Below, one piece after another: positions 24,768 through 53,896 of a DNA stretch of 64,000 bases. The notes under the pieces are model-generated. The model saw nothing but the letters and a program-made list of their open reading frames with translations, did no database searches and was not told the DNA's origin. Origin of the DNA: Streptococcus sanguinis (GTDB lineage Bacteria; Bacillota; Bacilli; Lactobacillales; Streptococcaceae); NCBI RefSeq assembly GCF_900635155.1, contig NZ_LR134002.1:2161001-2225000 (forward strand). Direction: 5' to 3'. Position 1 is the first letter of the stretch, and each line of letters starts with the position of its first letter. The position numbers and the translations under genes are program-made.

Positions 24768-25160
24768 GTTTTTACTCCTTTATGATAAGATACTAAGCCC
24801 TTGATAAAGCGAGAAGAAATGTGTCTCTGTCTCAAGGCTCTTTAGGGCGAGTTCTGTGAAATGTTTTCAGAGGAAAATCCTCTGTCATTTACAATGCTGC
24901 AAACAGCCACAATCAGTCCCTTTTGTTTAATTTTCAGAAAAATTAAATTATGGTTACATAATTCTTTTTTCCTAAAAATAGGCACAAAAAGAGCAGCTAA
25001 ATCTGACTTATTCAAGTTTGATTTAACTGCTGTAAGCTTCTATTTGGACAATATTTCAAATAAAGCACACGACAAATTATTGTTATCATTATACCTTATT
25101 TAGCTAGAAATTGCAAGGATTTCATCCGCTTTCTGAAAAGTTAAAACTGTTCTTGATGCG
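24768..25160. other. rpoB leader and pbp1b 3' region
   Basis: Nearly 400 bases without a gene. It holds the pbp1b terminator (24986-25031), an AT-rich promoter zone for rpoB, and in the rpoB leader an imperfect stem AGCCTTGA/TCAAGGGCT (about 24792-24840) just ahead of the ribosome site. No ORF or known riboswitch pattern was found. Confidence 0.5.
24986..25031 (-). terminator. Intrinsic terminator after pbp1b
   Basis: Twelve-base arms AGCAGCTAAATC (24992-25003) and GATTTAACTGCT (25020-25031) pair with one wobble; a T run follows on the minus strand (24986-24990). Confidence 0.75.
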
Positions 25161-43775: not shown

Positions 43776-44825
43776 TTAATCCAATCTAATTAGTAAAAAT
43801 TTTTTCCAATCTTTTGGACAACCAATTTTAGTTTCCTCTATGATATTACTTTTCGTAAACTTTTCTTCAATATCCTCAATAAATGTATTCCACTCGTCAT
43901 GAACGTTTGAATTGTGGCAAATAAGAATTTGTTTTATTGCCAACATATATGCAAATAAATCTTTATTATGAGTTTTTTTCTTCCCACACTTGCGTAATTC
44001 CCGAAAAGTTGGCTCATAAAATTTTGGGACATTCGCATTAAAATTAGCTGCATAAAGTCGGCCATAATGTGCACTAACATTTCGAATAAAACATGTAGCC
44101 GAAATCCAACTTCTACTAGCTGATATAATATGATCTTTCATTGAAGTTTCATAATAATTATTATTAAAAAATAACTCTTCAATCCATAAATTATAAAACT
44201 TTTCGTTTAATTGCTCAATCAATTTAGTTGTTTCTCCAAAAGTAAGTTCTGGCACGATAACCCAAAAAGGAAATTTGCAATTTTTATTTTCGACATGGTG
44301 TTTTATTGGAAGAGATTTTTTTCTTAAATGATACAAGCTCATCCCTATTCTTTCAATAACGCCCTTAAAATATTCTTCGTTTTTATAAATTGATTTATCT
44401 AAGTAGCACTCTCCAGCTTGTAAACTACCTCTATAATTACTACATAAGGTATGAACAATAGATGATTTGATTAATAATTCTATTTTACCAGTAAATTTCA
44501 TCAAGTTTTCTCTCAAGAAAGAATTGAATTCATATAGTTCGATACAGTCTTGAAAAGTAAAATCTTGATTATTTAAATTTGGCAAGTGCTTCTTATATAT
44601 AGAGAAATCATAGTAATTTGTCTGAAAAAGAAACTGTTTAGCAAATTTTTCTTGTTCTTCTGTAATAGTTACTTTAATGCTATTTTCATTTTCTGGATTA
44701 GAGAGCTTTTCTTTCAGTTCATCAAATTCAAGAAACGCCTTCATTGACTTGTCACTATCAGGAGATAACTTATAATATTTAAAAGTTTCTTGTTTTTCTC
44801 CAATTTTAGTTTCTTCAAAGCTCAT
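43776..44825 (-). CDS. abiF: AbiF/AbiD-type abortive infection protein (Abi_2 family, HEPN)
   Basis: A 349-residue cytosolic protein of the Abi_2 family, which aborts phage infection. Diagnostic points are the central FWVIVPELTFGETTKLIEQL (187-206) and the C-terminal HEPN ribonuclease motif R248-N-V-S-A-H253 (RxxxxH). It is single-gene, on the opposite strand to the flanking cargo lipoproteins, and is preceded by a short structured RNA with its own promoter (see 44838-44912). Low GC and many AT-rich codons set it apart from the chromosome. Whether RNA cleavage occurs here is inferred from the family. Confidence 0.85.
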   Translation of the reverse strand: MSFEETKIGEKQETFKYYKLSPDSDKSMKAFLEFDELKEKLSNPENENSIKVTITEEQEKFAKQFLFQTNYYDFSIYKKHLPNLNNQDFTFQDCIELYEFNSFLRENLMKFTGKIELLIKSSIVHTLCSNYRGSLQAGECYLDKSIYKNEEYFKGVIERIGMSLYHLRKKSLPIKHHVENKNCKFPFWVIVPELTFGETTKLIEQLNEKFYNLWIEELFFNNNYYETSMKDHIISASRSWISATCFIRNVSAHYGRLYAANFNANVPKFYEPTFRELRKCGKKKTHNKDLFAYMLAIKQILICHNSNVHDEWNTFIEDIEEKFTKSNIIEETKIGCPKDWKKFLLIRLD

Positions 44826-45869: not shown

Positions 45870-45888
45870 TTCATTATCAATCCTTTTT
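45858..45888. terminator. Bidirectional terminator between lipoprotein 2 and immA
   Basis: Perfect stem AAAAAGGATTGAT/ATCAATCCTTTTT with a 5-base loop; overlaps the 3' ends of both convergent genes. Confidence 0.85.
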
Positions 45889-46755
45889 ATTTTGTAGGTC
45901 ATAGAAGGCAAATTTAACTTTTCTACTAACTTCCATATCCGTTAGTTGCTTGCTGTCCCAAGCATACCATAGTGTAAGTCCTTTATCGTACTTAGACCAG
46001 GTTTTGATATGTGGAAGGGCGCTTTTTATTTTTTGGCAAAACGATTGATTTTGAAGTTCTGGAAACTCAATATGAGTAATAAAATTATTCTTCTCTAGCA
46101 GTAGTTTTAGTTTATCACTAGCTTTAATTTTAATCATTTCATAGTTGCTGATGATATTGTCTTTAATAATCTCCAAGTAAGAAATTAATTTTCTTCCAGC
46201 AGATGTACCTGCCCTAAAGCTAGTCACAATTCCTTGTGCTTTGGGGTAGCTCATATCTGTATAGTGTTGAAATAGTTGAGTCAGACGAACTTCCAAAGCT
46301 TTATTAGAGACTGCTAAATCTTGCATAACTCCTTGATAAGTTTTTTGTTGATAGAAAATCTTAGTTAAGAGCACTATATCTGGCATTAAAATAATAGAAG
46401 CAAAATAATCTGCTTCTAATTCTTGGGCGGTTTTATTTCTTAGACTTTCTGTAAAGAGGCTACCTTTATGATTTAAAAGTAAGTGTCCTAATTCATGACA
46501 TTTTGTGAAATTTTGCCTTTCTTGGATACAATCTTTTTCGTAAGATATAGAGACTCCAAGAGGATCAATCATTGTGATGCCTGATATTAAATCATTTTCA
46601 AAATGATGTTCAAAAACCTTGATGTGATACTGTTCTTTTTTTGCTTGAAAATAACTTTCAAAAGAATAGTTTATTAGGGAAATGTCGTGAAGTTTAATAA
46701 ACTGGTAAATTTCAGTACGAGCTATAGCGGCAATTTTTTGGTAAATAGGATTCAT
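45877..46755 (-). CDS. immA: ImmA/IrrE-type metalloprotease (ICE anti-repressor)
   Basis: A 292-residue protein with the zinc-protease motif H87-E-L-G-H91 in KCHELGHLLLNH and the downstream acidic ligand region QELEADYFASIILMP (E114/D116). In ICEBs1 and related elements ImmA cleaves the repressor ImmR on DNA damage or quorum signals, switching on excision and transfer. Its ATG is one base after the repressor gene's stop, the same two-gene layout. The C-terminal 130 residues are not recognised. Confidence 0.85.
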   Translation of the reverse strand: MNPIYQKIAAIARTEIYQFIKLHDISLINYSFESYFQAKKEQYHIKVFEHHFENDLISGITMIDPLGVSISYEKDCIQERQNFTKCHELGHLLLNHKGSLFTESLRNKTAQELEADYFASIILMPDIVLLTKIFYQQKTYQGVMQDLAVSNKALEVRLTQLFQHYTDMSYPKAQGIVTSFRAGTSAGRKLISYLEIIKDNIISNYEMIKIKASDKLKLLLEKNNFITHIEFPELQNQSFCQKIKSALPHIKTWSKYDKGLTLWYAWDSKQLTDMEVSRKVKFAFYDLQNKKD

Positions 46756-47103
46756 TTAGTCTTGTTCTTCTTCAAAAGCTTTTCTTCTCATTTCAATAAA
46801 ATTGTCAATGTCAATTTTAAATTGCTCTTGCTGCTCTTTTGTTAGGTTGAAATCATCTACTGTTTTTCTAAAAAGCACTTGTGCTGTTTCTAAAACAGGT
46901 TTCTTTTCATCAGCATTACCCAAGAGATAGTCTACAGAGACATCAAAAAGTTCAGCTATTTTAGTTAGCTTGTCTTGGGTTGGCTTTTTGTCACCTTTTT
47001 CCCATTTTTGATATGCTTGTTGGGAAACTCCTATTTGAGCAGCTATTTCTTTTTGTGTCAATTTAGCTTGCTTTCTTTGTTCTTTTAACCGCTCTGAAAA
47101 CAT
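46756..47103 (-). CDS. immR: ImmR-type XRE-family repressor of the ICE
   Basis: A 115-residue repressor with an N-terminal Cro/CI helix-turn-helix (LKEQRKQAKLTQKEIAAQIGVSQQAYQKWEKG, about 5-36) and a helical C-terminal part with a charged tail. Lies directly upstream of immA in one transcript and divergent from the transfer region. Palindromes that would suit this repressor lie at 47157-47173 and 47184-47200, over the divergent promoter. Confidence 0.85.
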   Translation of the reverse strand: MFSERLKEQRKQAKLTQKEIAAQIGVSQQAYQKWEKGDKKPTQDKLTKIAELFDVSVDYLLGNADEKKPVLETAQVLFRKTVDDFNLTKEQQEQFKIDIDNFIEMRRKAFEEEQD

Positions 47104-47148
47104 AGTTTTATCCTTCTTAAAAAAATTTAATTTTTTTTCAAAAAAACC

Positions 47149-47177
47149 TTGACAAATACAACCATAGGATGTATAAT
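47149..47177 (+). promoter_or_regulatory. Strong rightward promoter of the ICE (Pxis-like)
   Basis: Near-consensus: TTGACA (47149-47154), 17-base spacer, TATAAT (47172-47177). It drives the region of the putative large RNA and probably the transfer genes, as Pxis does in ICEBs1. Confidence 0.85.
47157..47173. promoter_or_regulatory. ImmR operator-like site O1 in the promoter spacer
   Basis: TACAACCATAGGATGTA, a palindrome with 12 of 16 paired positions symmetric, lying between -35 and -10; it shares ACAACC(N)TAGG with the perfect site downstream. Confidence 0.6.
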
Positions 47178-47183
47178 GTATTT

Positions 47184-47200
47184 AACAACCTAAGGTTGTT
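47184..47200. promoter_or_regulatory. ImmR operator-like site O2 at the transcription start
   Basis: AACAACCTAAGGTTGTT is a perfect 8-bp-arm palindrome around a central A, beginning at the predicted transcription start; 27 bases centre to centre from O1. Occupancy would block the rightward promoter. Confidence 0.75.
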
Positions 47201-47740
47201 GGAAAAATCTAGTCCAATCTTACTCAATGGTATGGTTTAGATAGTTAAAGAATTGAGCAGTAAGATTGACAATATAGATTTAAGATTGTTCTTTGAAAAT
47301 AGAATAAAAGTGCGTCAGACAGTTCCCACTGAAACCAACTAACACACTTAACTGTAGCAAGTTAATTATATCTTAAAATTGACGATATGTCAAACTTGAG
47401 ATTTTTGGGTTAAAAGCGAGGAGAAACTGGAGTTGTTTTAGGTTTTAACAAATCTAAGAACACACGCACCAGCTTTTGCCTTGTGAGCTGGCTTGGATAA
47501 ATCATAAGGAACTGCTGGCGCTGGAAGCGTTGGAGATGAAGCTTGTCTATATAGAGTGAGATATAGAAAGCGGGAGACATTTGTTTTTCGTTGGCAAGTG
47601 GATTGGGCGGTGTGTGGGCTTATTCTATAAGCTTGCTAAGGGATAAGGTGAGAAACTTTCGTGACTTATCCGAGCGAGTAGCTTTGTCGAGAGATAAGGT
47701 GAAAGAGTATGCGAAGATACGAGCATACACTAAGTAGAAA

Positions 47741-47835
47741 ATCATCTGCTTAGGAGAGTAGAAAATGTTTAATAAATTCAGAAGCAGATTGCTTTAGTTA
47801 GCAATCTGTTTTTTCTGTTTTCTTAAGCAGATGAT
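47741..47835. repeat. 12-bp inverted repeat enclosing the terminator
   Basis: ATCATCTGCTTA (47741-47752) is the exact reverse complement of TAAGCAGATGAT (47824-47835). Its left arm also takes part in the CTAAGTAG/CTGCTTAG hairpin, so the two pairings exclude each other. Confidence 0.7.
47785..47820 (+). terminator. Strong intrinsic terminator of the large RNA
   Basis: Perfect 9-bp stem CAGATTGCT/AGCAATCTG with a 6-base loop followed by TTTTTTCTGTTTT. Located 55 bases before the next gene, so downstream genes need read-through or another promoter. Confidence 0.88.
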
Positions 47836-47874
47836 ATAAAGAACGTCTTTATCTTGTAGAAATGAGGTTTAAGA

Positions 47875-48528
47875 TTGAATAAAATAATTTCAAAAATCCA
47901 AAACTTATTGGAGTTAGCTTATGATTCTCCTTCCGATGAAGAAGGACAGACAGCTTTGTTGATGGCACAGAAATTGATGCTAAAACATAAAATTTCTTTA
48001 GCTCAAGTTGAATCGAAAAAGGAAGAAACTCATTCTTTCAATGAAGCTTCTGGAAAAACAGCTGGGCGAATTTTATGGTGGGAAAGTTCCTTAGCAGCTC
48101 TTTTGGCTAAAAATTTTAGATGCCATGCAATTAGAAATCGAAATTTTGCATCGAGAGAGACTTCGATTAATTTCTTTGGTCTTGAAGAAGATGCTGAATT
48201 ATGTAGCGAAATTTTTAATGCCACTCGTTTGTATTTGATGTATAGATTTAAGAGATTGGTTGGAAAGGAAAAGAAAAACTCTTATTTATCAGGCTTCTTA
48301 CTTGGTTTAGATGAACGTTTTGAAAAACAGATACTTGAGAAGCAAGAATACGCATTAGTTGTGCAAGTTCCTGCAGTAGTTGAACAAGAATTTAAAAGGC
48401 AGTATGGAAATTTAAGAAATCATAATTCTAAAAAACCTGATTTTGATTTAGATATAGAAGCTTATTTTGAGGGATATTATCATGCCAAAGAATCAATTAT
48501 CATGCCAAACGAGTTGTTAAGAGAGTAA
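47875..48528 (+). CDS. DUF2786 domain protein
   Basis: A 217-residue protein starting at TTG (GAGG seven bases ahead): MNKIISKIQNLLELAYDSPS then DEEGQTALLMAQKLMLKHKISLAQVE, which is the DUF2786 pattern found in phages and conjugative elements. A central WWESSLAALLAKNFRCHAI segment and a long helical C-terminal half follow. Function unknown. First gene after the large-RNA terminator, ahead of the transfer genes. Confidence 0.75.
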   Translation: MNKIISKIQNLLELAYDSPSDEEGQTALLMAQKLMLKHKISLAQVESKKEETHSFNEASGKTAGRILWWESSLAALLAKNFRCHAIRNRNFASRETSINFFGLEEDAELCSEIFNATRLYLMYRFKRLVGKEKKNSYLSGFLLGLDERFEKQILEKQEYALVVQVPAVVEQEFKRQYGNLRNHNSKKPDFDLDIEAYFEGYYHAKESIIMPNELLRE

Positions 48529-49901: not shown

Positions 49902-51581
49902 TTGTTCAAGGATATTTGGAGTTTCAAGGGGCTGCGGGTTAGGAAATTTTATAAGGATATTCGGGCTATGCAGATAGTCCTTTTTTTCTTGCCCTTTGCT
50001 TCCCTGTTGGCTTGGTCTGCCTATTCTCTTCAGTCTGAATTTATGCGACAACCTATTCTCTATGGCGGACTGTATGGTGGCGGTTTGGTATTTTCCTTGT
50101 TGCTTTCGGTCTACATTGTTTTGAAATTAGAAGCACATGTCCTGTTCTTCTCTCGCTTACGTTCTCTAGCCATTATGCAACGTTTCCTATATGAGAATGG
50201 CTTTATCTACCCTGTAAAATCTCGTTGGCAAGAGAAAAAAGACACTTACCGCCTGCCCAAAGTCTATATCAAACAGAGTAAGTATGGAATGGATATTTAC
50301 TTTGAGCTGCGAGGCGGTAAATTTCAGGAGCGATTCTTAAAATTGGGCGGAGAATTAGAAAATACCTTTGATGGAGACTTTATGTCTCGGAATCATATCA
50401 AAGGCTATACATTCTATCGTATCGCAATTGACCGCTTCTCTAGCCGCTTGAATGTCCACCAAGTAGTGGTTGATTCAAAAGGTTTGCGGCTTATGAAAGA
50501 TGTCTGGTGGAACTTTGACAGTGAACCGCATTTGCTTCTAGCAGGTGGTACTGGTGGTGGTAAAACTGTTCTGATTATGGAGATTGCCTTAGCCTTGGCC
50601 AAAATTGGTTATATAGACTTGTGCGATCCAAAAGAATCAGACTTGACAGTTTTGAAGAAAGCGAAAGTCTTCAAAAATCGTGTTTTTGCTTCTAAGGAAG
50701 AAATGATTCAATGTTTGCGGGATAATGTGGCTCTGATGGTTGAGCGCTACCGTTTTATGGCAAGTCATCCAGATAATAAGATTGGGAAGTCCTACAAGGA
50801 CTATGGCTTAAAGCCTAAGTTTATCATCTTTGATGAATGGGCTGCCTTTATTGCTCTCTTGGATAGTGACTATAAGATGGCTTCTGAAGTTGTTCAACTG
50901 TTGACGCAAATTATACTTAAAGGTCGTCAGGCTGGAATCTTTATGATTTTAGGTTTACAGCGTCCAGATGGTGAATTTATCAAAACAGCTCTCCGTGATA
51001 ACTTTATGAAGCGTTTGTCAGTTGGTGTTCTGGAAGATACGGGCTATACCATGCTCTATGGAGACGCTAATCGAAACAAGAACTTTAAGAATGTAGATGA
51101 AGTCAATGGCGAAAAAGTAAAAGGTCGTGGCTATATAGCTAATGGCGGCCAAACGGCTGGTGAGTTTTTCAGTCCCTATGTGCCATTTGACAAAGGTTTT
51201 GATTTCTTAGAGGAATTTGAGAAGCTACCTGTATTGCCAGATGATGAAGTATCCCTTTCTACTGAACAAACTCAGGAAGAGTTACTGTCTGAAGCCAAGC
51301 ATTTACCAGTTGACCCAATCTTTGAAGAACAAGAGCGGACTATTTGGTATGTAGACAATTTGGCAAAACAGCTCAATAAGAGTTTTAAGCAGGTAAAAGA
51401 TGTGATTGATCGCATTGAGCAAGGAGCATATTATCAATTCAAGCGAGAAGAAAATAAGGTTGTTCTCAAGGAATTTGAAAAAGATGTGATTGTGGCGATT
51501 TTTGAAGAAAAGGAAAAGACAGGAGAACGGTATCAGGAAGTGATTCAAAAAATCTTCGAACAAGGCAAGGAAGTGGCTTAG
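49902..51581 (+). CDS. FtsK/SpoIIIE-type conjugative coupling protein (Orf21/ConQ/TcpA-like)
   Basis: A 559-residue membrane ATPase that delivers the relaxase-DNA complex to the transfer channel. It starts at TTG behind AAGGAG, has two membrane segments (about 23-46 and 58-76), then an FtsK-like domain with Walker A GGTGGGKT at 215-222 and Walker B FIIFDEW near 308-314, and a C-terminal winged-type region. Directly upstream of oriT and MobT, as in Tn916 and ICEBs1. Confidence 0.92.
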   Translation: MFKDIWSFKGLRVRKFYKDIRAMQIVLFFLPFASLLAWSAYSLQSEFMRQPILYGGLYGGGLVFSLLLSVYIVLKLEAHVLFFSRLRSLAIMQRFLYENGFIYPVKSRWQEKKDTYRLPKVYIKQSKYGMDIYFELRGGKFQERFLKLGGELENTFDGDFMSRNHIKGYTFYRIAIDRFSSRLNVHQVVVDSKGLRLMKDVWWNFDSEPHLLLAGGTGGGKTVLIMEIALALAKIGYIDLCDPKESDLTVLKKAKVFKNRVFASKEEMIQCLRDNVALMVERYRFMASHPDNKIGKSYKDYGLKPKFIIFDEWAAFIALLDSDYKMASEVVQLLTQIILKGRQAGIFMILGLQRPDGEFIKTALRDNFMKRLSVGVLEDTGYTMLYGDANRNKNFKNVDEVNGEKVKGRGYIANGGQTAGEFFSPYVPFDKGFDFLEEFEKLPVLPDDEVSLSTEQTQEELLSEAKHLPVDPIFEEQERTIWYVDNLAKQLNKSFKQVKDVIDRIEQGAYYQFKREENKVVLKEFEKDVIVAIFEEKEKTGERYQEVIQKIFEQGKEVA

Positions 51582-51604
51582 TGTCCGATAGAATGGTAAA
51601 TTTC

Positions 51605-51687
51605 AGGATTGGCTGGAAGGTCAGGGTCAGCCCAGCGACCAGCGGGAGCTGGGCGGTACGACCCGATACGACCTGAAAGCCAATCCT
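51605..51687. repeat. Nested inverted repeats flanking oriT
   Basis: Outer arms 51605-51622 and 51670-51687 pair over 15 of 18 positions (AGGATTGGCT fully); inside lies a perfect 7-bp hairpin GCCCAGC/GCTGGGC (51630-51654). A TACGACC direct repeat (51657-51673) is also present. Located between the coupling-protein stop and the nic-region hairpin. Confidence 0.7.
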
Positions 51688-51689
51688 GA

Positions 51690-51745
51690 TGAAAACCCCC
51701 ATATTCTAATAGGGGGGTTACGATTTGCAAAAATCGAAAAAGCGA
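51690..51745 (+). other. oriT: Origin of transfer (oriT) of the Tn916/ICEBs1 type
   Basis: Inverted repeat AACCCCC...GGGGGTT (51694-51719) separated by TATTCTAAT, followed by TACGATTTGCAAAAATCG. The C-rich and G-rich arms followed by a T-A junction are the arrangement seen at the nic sites of Tn916 and ICEBs1. Its place between the coupling-protein gene and the MobT gene agrees. Confidence 0.8.
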
Positions 51746-51836
51746 CTCCCCTTGTCCTTAGAGTACCAAGGTTTTTCAATGTCACTGACTTGTACTACTT
51801 TCTCCGAAAATTTGTACCACTTTAGAAAGGAAAATC

Positions 51837-53099
51837 ATGCCAAAAGCAAGAATCATTGATGGAAAGCATTTGGTAGAACTGCGAAAAGCAACAGGCCTGA
51901 CTCAAAAAGAGTTTGCGAAAGCGGCAGCTGTGAGTGTAGATAGTCTGCGCTCCTTTGAAAGAGGGCGGCGAGCTTTAACGACTGAGCGGTTTCAGTTGAT
52001 GAAGCTAGCATTAGGTTATGAAATTTCAAAAAGTCAGCGTTTGCGAGTCATGATTGATTATCTGAGAATCACTTTTAAAGAAGTTCGAAACTTGGCTTAT
52101 TTTTGTCAGACTTTTTTACATTGTGATTTAAAGGAATTTACCTCAAACGATACCCGGCTCATGACTTATAGCCATTTATGGCGGCGGGGCGATATTTGGA
52201 TTTTTGATTACTTTGATAAGGAAGTGACAGATAATTATCAGATTACGCTACAGTTATCCGGTCATGGTTGCCGACAGATGGAATTGATTCTAGAAAAGAA
52301 TGGTCTCACTTGGTATGACCTACTGCAGAAAATGGTCTATGAGCGGTCAGATATGAAAGTGACTCGGCTAGATATTGCTATGGACGAGCTGTATCGGGGT
52401 TATGGCCATGAACATGAACAGTTCCATTTGGTGGATATGATTGCTAAGGTTTATCAAAAAGAAGTCGTTTTTGACCATCTGCGAACCTGGAATCATATCG
52501 GCGGTGGTGGCTTGAAATTTGAGAATCGGGAAGAAATTGCAGAACGAAGTCAAGGAATTTCTATATATTTTGGTTCTAGGCAATCCAATCTCTACTTTAA
52601 CTTTTATGAGAAGCGCTACGAACTAGCCCGAAAAGAGGGGCTTAGTTTAGCAGAATCATTAGAAATATTTGGAATATGGAATCGCTATGAGTTGCGCTTC
52701 TCCCAAGCAAAGGCTAATGAAGCTATCAAAAGGTTTGTAGAAGGTACAGATTTAGCTGAAATTGCAAAAGGAGTTGTTAATGCTGAAATGCAGGTGTATG
52801 ACCGCACAAATCAATACGGAGCTTTTCTGCCAGATAAGAAATGGCAAGCCCTCTTTGGCGGTACAGAAAAGCTGAAATTATCTGTTCGGCCAGAACCTTA
52901 TAATATCGGTCGTACGATTAAGTGGCTCTTGCATCAAGTATCGGATAGTCTAGCTTTAGTGGAAGAAGCAGACAAAATCATGGATACCAAGTATCTGGAA
53001 ATGATTTTAGATACCGGCTGTATAAATGAACGTGGCGAATTAATTTTGAAGGATATACAAGCCGATGTGCTACTAAAAAAATCAAAGGAGAGTACATGA
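51837..53099 (+). CDS. MobT-family relaxase (Rep_trans, Tn916 Orf20-like)
   Basis: The nicking enzyme for transfer and rolling-circle replication, 420 residues. An N-terminal XRE-like helix-turn-helix (LVELRKATGLTQKEFAKAAAVSVDSLRSFERG, 11-42) precedes a Rep_trans/RepB_C fold with the metal-binding strand TRLDIAMDE (180-188 region) and aromatic-rich FYEKRYE segment. Same architecture as Orf20 of Tn916 and NicK of ICEBs1. It ends overlapping the next small gene by 4 bases. Confidence 0.9.
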   Translation: MPKARIIDGKHLVELRKATGLTQKEFAKAAAVSVDSLRSFERGRRALTTERFQLMKLALGYEISKSQRLRVMIDYLRITFKEVRNLAYFCQTFLHCDLKEFTSNDTRLMTYSHLWRRGDIWIFDYFDKEVTDNYQITLQLSGHGCRQMELILEKNGLTWYDLLQKMVYERSDMKVTRLDIAMDELYRGYGHEHEQFHLVDMIAKVYQKEVVFDHLRTWNHIGGGGLKFENREEIAERSQGISIYFGSRQSNLYFNFYEKRYELARKEGLSLAESLEIFGIWNRYELRFSQAKANEAIKRFVEGTDLAEIAKGVVNAEMQVYDRTNQYGAFLPDKKWQALFGGTEKLKLSVRPEPYNIGRTIKWLLHQVSDSLALVEEADKIMDTKYLEMILDTGCINERGELILKDIQADVLLKKSKEST

Positions 53100-53844: not shown

Positions 53845-53896
53845 GGAATAGGAGAGGTTCGATTCCTCTCTTTTTCATTTTGGAAGGAGTATTAAA

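Follow-up and report, generated by a model that had tools for sequence, protein, structure and literature searches.

The region is the untranslated 5′ leader of the conjugation operon of an ICE of the ICESt/ICEBs1/Tn916 group, and both of its strands matter. The anatomy of this leader is well supported. From it we infer the mechanism: on balance, the leader probably acts as a two-strand RNA switch, in which boxA-based antitermination resembling that of canT would be countered by an antisense RNA resembling Anti-Q. The window referred to below is the whole 64,000-nucleotide stretch that was analysed, positions 2,161,001-2,225,000 of the 2.36-Mb genome of Streptococcus sanguinis.

Results

The leader and its surroundings

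A first-pass annotation had described about 630 bases of structured RNA without a credible ORF, lying between a near-consensus promoter and a strong intrinsic terminator on an ICE under ImmR control. Both boundaries were found, the promoter matching the consensus at all 12 positions and the terminator with a 14-bp stem (Table 1). The placing on an ICE under ImmR control also holds; the element is of the ImmR/ImmA type, with HTH_3 and Peptidase_M78 genes. No ORF of at least 50 amino acids is present on the plus strand of the leader, and a conserved ORF is not supported. On the minus strand, a 56-aa ORF (47410-47580) is interrupted by in-frame stops in two of the three relatives found. The rightward operon that the leader feeds encodes FtsK-like, Rep_trans and AAA_10 proteins and contains 22 terminator-like sites, compared with 10.6 ± 3.3 in shuffled sequences (both strands counted).

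Table 1. Features of the leader and the adjoining ICE genes, in window positions.
Feature	Position	Strand	Remarks
ImmA-like protease gene	45877..46755	-	Peptidase_M78
ImmR/cI-like repressor gene	46756..47103	-	HTH_3
Conjugation-operon promoter	47149..47177	+	TTGACA-17-TATAAT, 12/12 consensus; counterpart of Pcr of ICESt1/3
Imperfect dyad in promoter spacer, candidate repressor operator 1	47157..47174	.	Read from sequence; putative
Dyad AACAACCTAAGGTTGTT at transcription start, candidate operator 2	47184..47200	.	Read from sequence; putative
rRNA-type boxA TGTTCTTTGAAAA	47287..47299	+	Extended match to rRNA boxes 47291-47306
Predicted antisense RNA, about 60 nt, 3′ end beside boxA	47296..47358	-	
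Antisense-RNA terminator hairpin	47308..47349	-	U tract to about 47300; fold and covariation
Convergent antisense promoter	47365..47393	-	12/12 consensus; counterpart of Parp2 of ICESt1/3
Module B, conserved plus-strand RNA domain	47605..47741	+	
Module B 3′ hairpin, loop GAAGATACGA	47707..47728	+	4/6 pairs change on both sides
Hairpin CTAAGTAGA...TCTGCTTAG	47730..47753	+	By eye; comparable hairpins occupy this site in L198, L204 and L217-L220
Intrinsic terminator, 14 bp, between leader and first gene	47780..47813	+	
First gene after leader	47875..48528	+	DUF2786/DUF7168
FtsK-like coupling protein and Rep_trans relaxase genes, in the operon fed by the leader	49902..53099	+	

Several other features of the window were recorded. 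The sequence CCCCCATATTCTAATAGGGG at 51696-51715, upstream of the relaxase gene, resembles an oriT. A hairpin, GGAGAGGTTCGATTCCTCTC, followed by a T run lies between two operon genes (53850-53872) and is similar to the T arm of a tRNA; no tRNA gene is present within the window. An Abi_2-family gene (43776-44825) adjoins the regulation genes of the ICE, and a Lacto-rpoB RNA is found on the minus strand at 25019-25077.

The strong structure claimed for the leader was confirmed, as the stretch of about 630 bases folds better than its dinucleotide shuffles (z -6.9 with 20 shuffles, z -5.3 with 40). The reverse strand likewise beats its shuffles (z -6.8), and fold energy alone therefore cannot tell which strand acts; this equally good fold of the opposite strand across the entire leader counts against the switch proposed here. 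Among shorter segments, those that stand out on the plus strand are 47605-47754 (z -4.2) and the terminator (z -3.9; reverse strand -3.7). In segment 47291-47400 the plus strand is ordinary (z -1.2) and the minus strand better (z -3.4). A second perfect promoter, absent from the first-pass annotation, is located here on the minus strand (47393-47365). The purine-rich composition that was said to set the leader apart from nearby genes was not borne out, since its value of 0.568 falls inside the range of 0.516-0.621 for the coding strands of 13 neighbouring genes.

The earlier suggestion thus stands as regards a structured non-coding RNA in an ICE, and falls as regards membership in ROOL, GOLLD or any other Rfam family. 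In a full Rfam 15 scan no family reached its gathering score in the region, and a permissive scan (E up to 10, 46900-48000) gave nine weak matches, with neither ROOL nor GOLLD among them; every other Rfam family was rejected for the leader on the same two scans. A giant ornate RNA that acts as a free molecule, like ROOL, GOLLD or OLE, would suit the size of about 630 nt, the strong fold and the location on a mobile element. Nevertheless, we regard it as extremely unlikely in view of the lack of Rfam matches, the variable spacing of the conserved blocks (about 310 to 760 nt) and the absence of DNA relatives of the leader from phage and plasmid records at E 1e-5.

Relatives of the leader in Streptococcus

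Relatives of the leader were collected by blastn in 59 relatives and then in 284 genomes of the genus. Two are close (81-82% over 310-480 nt), and many other loci have short colinear blocks in common. We compared 27 loci with their flanks; two of these, L206 and L224, are near-identical, and the core is present in 26 of the 27 (L223 lacks it) as well as in the window. A repressor homologue is encoded upstream on the minus strand in 27/27. A sense promoter with at least 10 of 12 consensus positions lies no more than 400 nt upstream of the core in 23 leaders, and an antisense promoter of at least the same quality lies downstream of it in 26. By a crude scan, a terminator-like site is located within 1.5 kb after boxA in 21 leaders and is missing in six, which counts against antitermination as the role of the leader.

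A boxA of the rRNA type

In the host rRNA operons boxA reads CTTTGAAAACTGAACA in leaders and CATTGAAAATTGAATA in 16S-23S spacers, and the box in the ICE leader has the sequence of the host rRNA boxA. The genome has nine copies of the extended pattern CWTTGAAAANNGAAYA. Seven are in rRNA operons (four leaders and three spacers, the fourth spacer being masked in this count), one is in the ICE leader, and one lies some 365 nt upstream of one further gene, where it looks like chance. This gene is presumably pnp-like. The reversed pattern is not found in the genome. For B. subtilis, the pattern CNTTGAAAACTANAYA gave three matches (reversed, none), namely one in ICEBs1 and two in a single rRNA operon, in its leader and its spacer; further rRNA copies of boxA in that genome may be masked or differ. 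The C.TTG motif is kept in 41/41 leaders, 27 from Streptococcus found by blastn and 14 from elsewhere, of which only the 27 are independent because the other 14 were found with models that include the boxA block. In the E. coli rrnB leader (L197), boxA is followed by CAGACAATCTG and CGAAGATACG; words similar to CAGACAAYCTG and CGAAGATACG of that leader are present in Streptococcus ICE leaders at a different spacing, and this may be chance.

Could the resemblance to boxA itself be chance, with the plus strand conserved merely as the complement of the antisense terminator described below, through its stem and U tract? In favour of that explanation, the A-rich stretch following boxA is complementary to the U tract of the antisense RNA. 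However, C.TTG falls outside the U tract and is present in all 27 independently found Streptococcus leaders, the genome-wide pattern counts favour rRNA operons and leaders, and Tn916 contains the box although no antisense gene is recognised there. We therefore consider a fortuitous match very improbable.

The boxA block in Tn916

The boxA block also matches one near-identical locus in many genomes. In plasmid records the gene beside this locus is the Tn916 excisionase gene, and the 83-aa orf5 is present there on the minus strand. According to the accessible part of PMC11658703, the interval between orf8 and xis of Tn916 constitutes canT, an orientation-specific, cis-acting, processive antiterminator that is most likely an RNA and that passes intrinsic terminators. 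We found that a pemK RNA (RF02913) lies inside canT (L009 1666-1766, 55 bits, E 2.8e-9); Rfam gave no pemK RNA in the window, in ICEBs1 or in an ICESt-like leader, a point in which these depart from canT. The change that inactivates canT, canT(S3), targets a tyrosine codon of orf5 (PMC11658703, in the same part). There are two such codons in orf5, and both fall within the pemK match, in the 11 nt at its 5′ end, where it is most conserved. The S3 change is outside boxA, and a 400-bp canT fragment is insensitive to it, with some shorter fragments active (same excerpt of PMC11658703); these observations count against an explanation based on boxA. Neither the word boxA nor the terms 'pemK RNA' and 'pemK motif' occur in the accessible text of that paper. 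Judged by sequence, canT combines boxA with a known, unexplained structured RNA, and the other families keep boxA with a different second domain. The pemK RNAs found elsewhere may be antiterminators.

In E. coli, boxA is necessary and sufficient for formation of the rRNA antitermination complex (PMC10250234, excerpt). A published abstract describes this rRNA antitermination as mainly protection from Rho and not from intrinsic terminators, which counts against antitermination by the leader. The box could accordingly provide Rho protection or other shielding instead of resistance to intrinsic terminators, and the leader would then be a passive attenuator governed by the antisense RNA alone. That arrangement is improbable in our estimation, because the leader terminator and the terminator-like sites of the operon must be passed, and because canT, which has the same box, passes intrinsic terminators in the account cited above.

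A predicted antisense RNA gene that ends beside boxA

The antisense gene is laid out as a promoter, 61-74 nt, a hairpin and a U tract. Its terminator hairpin folds at -20.5 kcal/mol, compared with -6.4 kcal/mol for the same stretch read as sense, and between the antisense start and boxA the antisense fold is the better one in 27/27 leaders (-13.6 to -26.1 versus -3.7 to -12.3 kcal/mol). Just after boxA the minus strand pairs well and the plus strand poorly, C.A mismatches on the plus strand being G.U pairs on the minus strand; among 24 distinct sequences, 98 of 359 pairs in the stem are G.U.

RNAalifold predicted no pair on the sense alignment A1 and none on the first antisense alignment A2, and the stem was derived from single folds and later alignments; the missing consensus fold in A1 and A2 counts against the proposed switch. 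In a MAFFT alignment of 17 sequences, 97.1% of cells are paired, compared with 26-48% when the partners are slid. Shuffles rarely equalled the covariation score of this alignment (3 of 500) or its number of double-change cells (5 of 500). However, just one of the eight pairs changes on both sides, a result that 330 of 500 shuffles gave as well. When 45 sequences were aligned to the model, a procedure that leans towards structure, seven of the eight pairs changed on both sides (37 cells) and 0/500 shuffles did as well on any of five measures. The most widely conserved helix of the region is that of the antisense RNA, on the minus strand.

The convergent promoter might instead serve the repressor gene only, as Parp2 does for arp2, with the terminator tuning the repressor level and the short antisense RNA having no target. 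Consistent with this, Parp2 drives the cI-like gene in ICESt1/3, and no other conserved minus-strand promoter was seen between boxA and the repressor gene. However, the distance from the antisense promoter to boxA is steady at 70-85 nt (a spacing that, in loci outside Streptococcus, is partly built into the search model), whereas that to the repressor gene varies from about 100 to 1800 nt in Streptococcus and is about 1 kb in ICEBs1, beyond two other genes. This constant spacing to boxA, which the repressor gene does not show, speaks against an antisense promoter that serves repressor expression alone, and we judge such a role unlikely.

Module B and alternative second domains

The 3′ end of module B is a hairpin with the near-constant loop GAWGATANGA, located 314-764 nt after boxA in Streptococcus. 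Compensatory changes, which the first-pass annotation had left to be checked, are present in this plus-strand hairpin, with four of six pairs changing on both sides. Its cells are 99.1% paired, and 0/500 shuffles reached its paired cells, double-change cells or covariation score; the other two measures were reached by 4/500 and 21/500, and sliding the partners by two columns leaves 70-72% of cells paired. Among the 27 Streptococcus leaders, the hairpin scores above shuffles in 20 (at most 3/200), 19 of these being the ones that defined it. Outside the genus, L291 and L292 stand at 2-3/200 shuffles, L270 at 15/200 and L294 at 19/200. By this test module B is missing from seven Streptococcus leaders and from 10 of 14 others, including ICEBs1, which counts against antitermination as the common role of these leaders. 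The seven (L200, L202, L203, L210, L212, L214 and L222) have in its place a different RNA, also strongly conserved and about 250 nt long, together with a terminator, and appear from their gene order and the TACAAT -10 element of the antisense promoter to be ICESt1/3-like. In L202 this RNA extends from box+150 to +430, and likewise in its relatives.

Distribution of the module

Two models, neither of which contains any gene, were used for wider searches: R1 describes the minus-strand gene, and R2 is wider. Among 284 Streptococcus species genomes R1 matched 77; when the order was sampled, it matched 25 of 395 genomes, which belong to 4 of 80 genera. R2 matched 8 of 398 genomes of the class, 3/29 in one family and 9/80 in another. 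One weak Streptococcus match, L271, looks like a decayed copy. Outside Streptococcus the module was found at 17 places in other Bacilli, with E-values of 6e-6 to 5e-3 per genome that would be unconvincing alone over hundreds of genomes. We read the surroundings of 14 of these places (all except L283, L284 and L285) by tblastn with window proteins. An FtsK-like or relaxase gene lies downstream on the sense strand in 14/14, and a repressor homologue lies upstream in 12. These weak matches were accepted because their surroundings hold conjugation genes, which the models do not contain. A pattern search of genome contigs gave 106 loci, of which 35, all from Streptococcus, fit the model, the other 71 being taken as chance; among 13 pattern matches in viral contigs none fits the model at E 0.01, and two reach E 0.8.

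In B. subtilis the ICEBs1 leader is located at 532,561-532,674 of a 4,215,606-bp contig. Integrase and repressor genes are upstream, followed by an 86-aa ORF, the leader, a 126-aa ORF, and the genes for the FtsK-like protein and the relaxase. DevI (YdcO), encoded by the third ORF downstream of Pxis, is 86 aa long (PMC8032392, excerpt); HelP (YdcP) has 126 aa and precedes conQ and nicK, and sncO is an ICEBs1 gene deleted in the same study (PMC3542172, excerpt). As the lengths of the flanking ORFs match DevI and HelP, the leader lies between devI (ydcO) and helP (ydcP). Further down operons of the ICEBs1 type, a Bacillus-plasmid RNA (RF01691) was observed (L289 7381-7434, also in L277, L290 and L293-L296). 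For TnSmu1, the region between SMU_217c and immR is strongly induced and its product is not known (PMC10233336). The TnSmu1 oriT of that paper matched in L097 only and no Fst-like peptide was recognised in L225, and for these reasons no locus was assigned to TnSmu1.

Discussion

A proposed two-strand switch

Ahead of the conjugation genes, the leader contains two promoters, a boxA, a covarying antisense stem, the module B hairpin and a terminator. Work by others on relatives has shown that both promoters are active in ICESt1/3 and that canT of Tn916 antiterminates. We propose that departure of the ImmR-like repressor would allow transcription to start at the conjugation-operon promoter (47149-47177), and that the nascent leader would expose the rRNA-type boxA and so recruit NusB/S10 and other Nus factors to RNA polymerase. 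With boxA and a downstream structured RNA, here module B, the polymerase may then resist the terminator at 47780-47813 and the later operon terminators in the manner of canT. The convergent promoter inside the leader would produce a short antisense RNA with its 3′ end abutting boxA. Either pairing of this RNA with the leader, which would crowd boxA because the antisense RNA ends beside it, or collision of polymerases could hinder the antitermination complex, and stray transcripts would stop at the leader terminator, as with Anti-Q in pCF10. Where the repressor gene is adjacent, read-through of the antisense terminator would feed it.

Antitermination by the leader is supported because its boxA is rRNA-like, Tn916 canT has the same box and canT is a proven antiterminator, and also because all 14 inspected contexts are conjugative and the module B hairpin covaries. 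For an inhibitory antisense RNA, support comes from the minus-strand folds in 27/27 leaders, the covariation of the stem, the promoters in 26/27 and the mapped promoters of ICESt1/3. It is possible, if somewhat short of probable, that these leaders form an unrecognised RNA class of ICEBs1/ICESt/Tn916 elements of Bacilli, an rRNA-boxA antitermination leader with a countertranscript off switch fixed 70-85 nt away. The arrangement may be a switch for gene transfer.

If this is true, ICEs drive their transfer operons with ribosome-making machinery. How canT RNA acts on RNA polymerase was left open by its authors, who suspect direct binding (PMC11658703, excerpt); the common rRNA-type boxA names NusB/S10 as a candidate host factor. 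ICE control is usually described via repressors, and a countertranscript linked to boxA would give it a further layer made of RNA. The presence of the module in ICEBs1, the best-studied Gram-positive ICE, makes these proposals testable in a laboratory strain. In the accessible open-licence literature we found neither a boxA nor an antisense RNA gene described for such ICE leaders, and their combination is likely new.

Comparison with known systems

One of the closest known systems is the Pcr/Parp2 region of ICESt1/3, which has the same convergent promoter pair. According to the excerpted text of PMC3234194, Pcr was mapped by 5′RACE for ICESt1 and by RT-PCR for ICESt3, the convergent Parp2 (-10 TACAAT) was mapped too and drives the cI-like gene, and the leader has 5′ ends about 100 bp in and a sense stem-loop of -6.4 to -6.7 kcal/mol. 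That text notes this weak stem-loop but not boxA or an antisense terminator. S. infantis ATCC 700779, which it names as a relative, carries the module (L178).

The leader resembles canT in position, both being untranslated and flanked by the main promoter on one side and, before the conjugation genes, by the first terminator on the other. The boxA block is shared as well (27 nt, 93% identical), so that by sequence the leader would belong with canT-type leaders in these two respects. The function of canT is proven, whereas antitermination by the window leader is proposed by analogy. Neither model of the antisense module matches Tn916, which counts against the proposed switch; Tn916 has a promoter-like site of 9/12 with its -10 at 76 nt from boxA, and a weak hairpin.

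The antisense gene recalls prgQ/Anti-Q of pCF10, where a conjugation-operon leader likewise contains convergent promoters, a short countertranscript and a terminator, and where the repressor is also read from the opposite strand (PMC6540685, excerpt). With a convergent promoter and a short terminated antisense RNA in its leader, predicted from sequence, the ICE would be of the Anti-Q type. By contrast, pCF10 uses peptide signals, boxA is not mentioned in the part of PMC6540685 at hand, and the likeness is drawn from published descriptions. Antitermination at the start of a Gram-positive conjugation operon is also known from conAn of pLS20, which differs in needing the protein ConAn1 and was compared by description only (PMC8955417, excerpt). 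Finally, the leaders and spacers of rRNA operons have the same boxA sequence, including its 3′ extension, but in the ICE leader no rRNA follows; boxA is succeeded by an antisense gene and another RNA domain.
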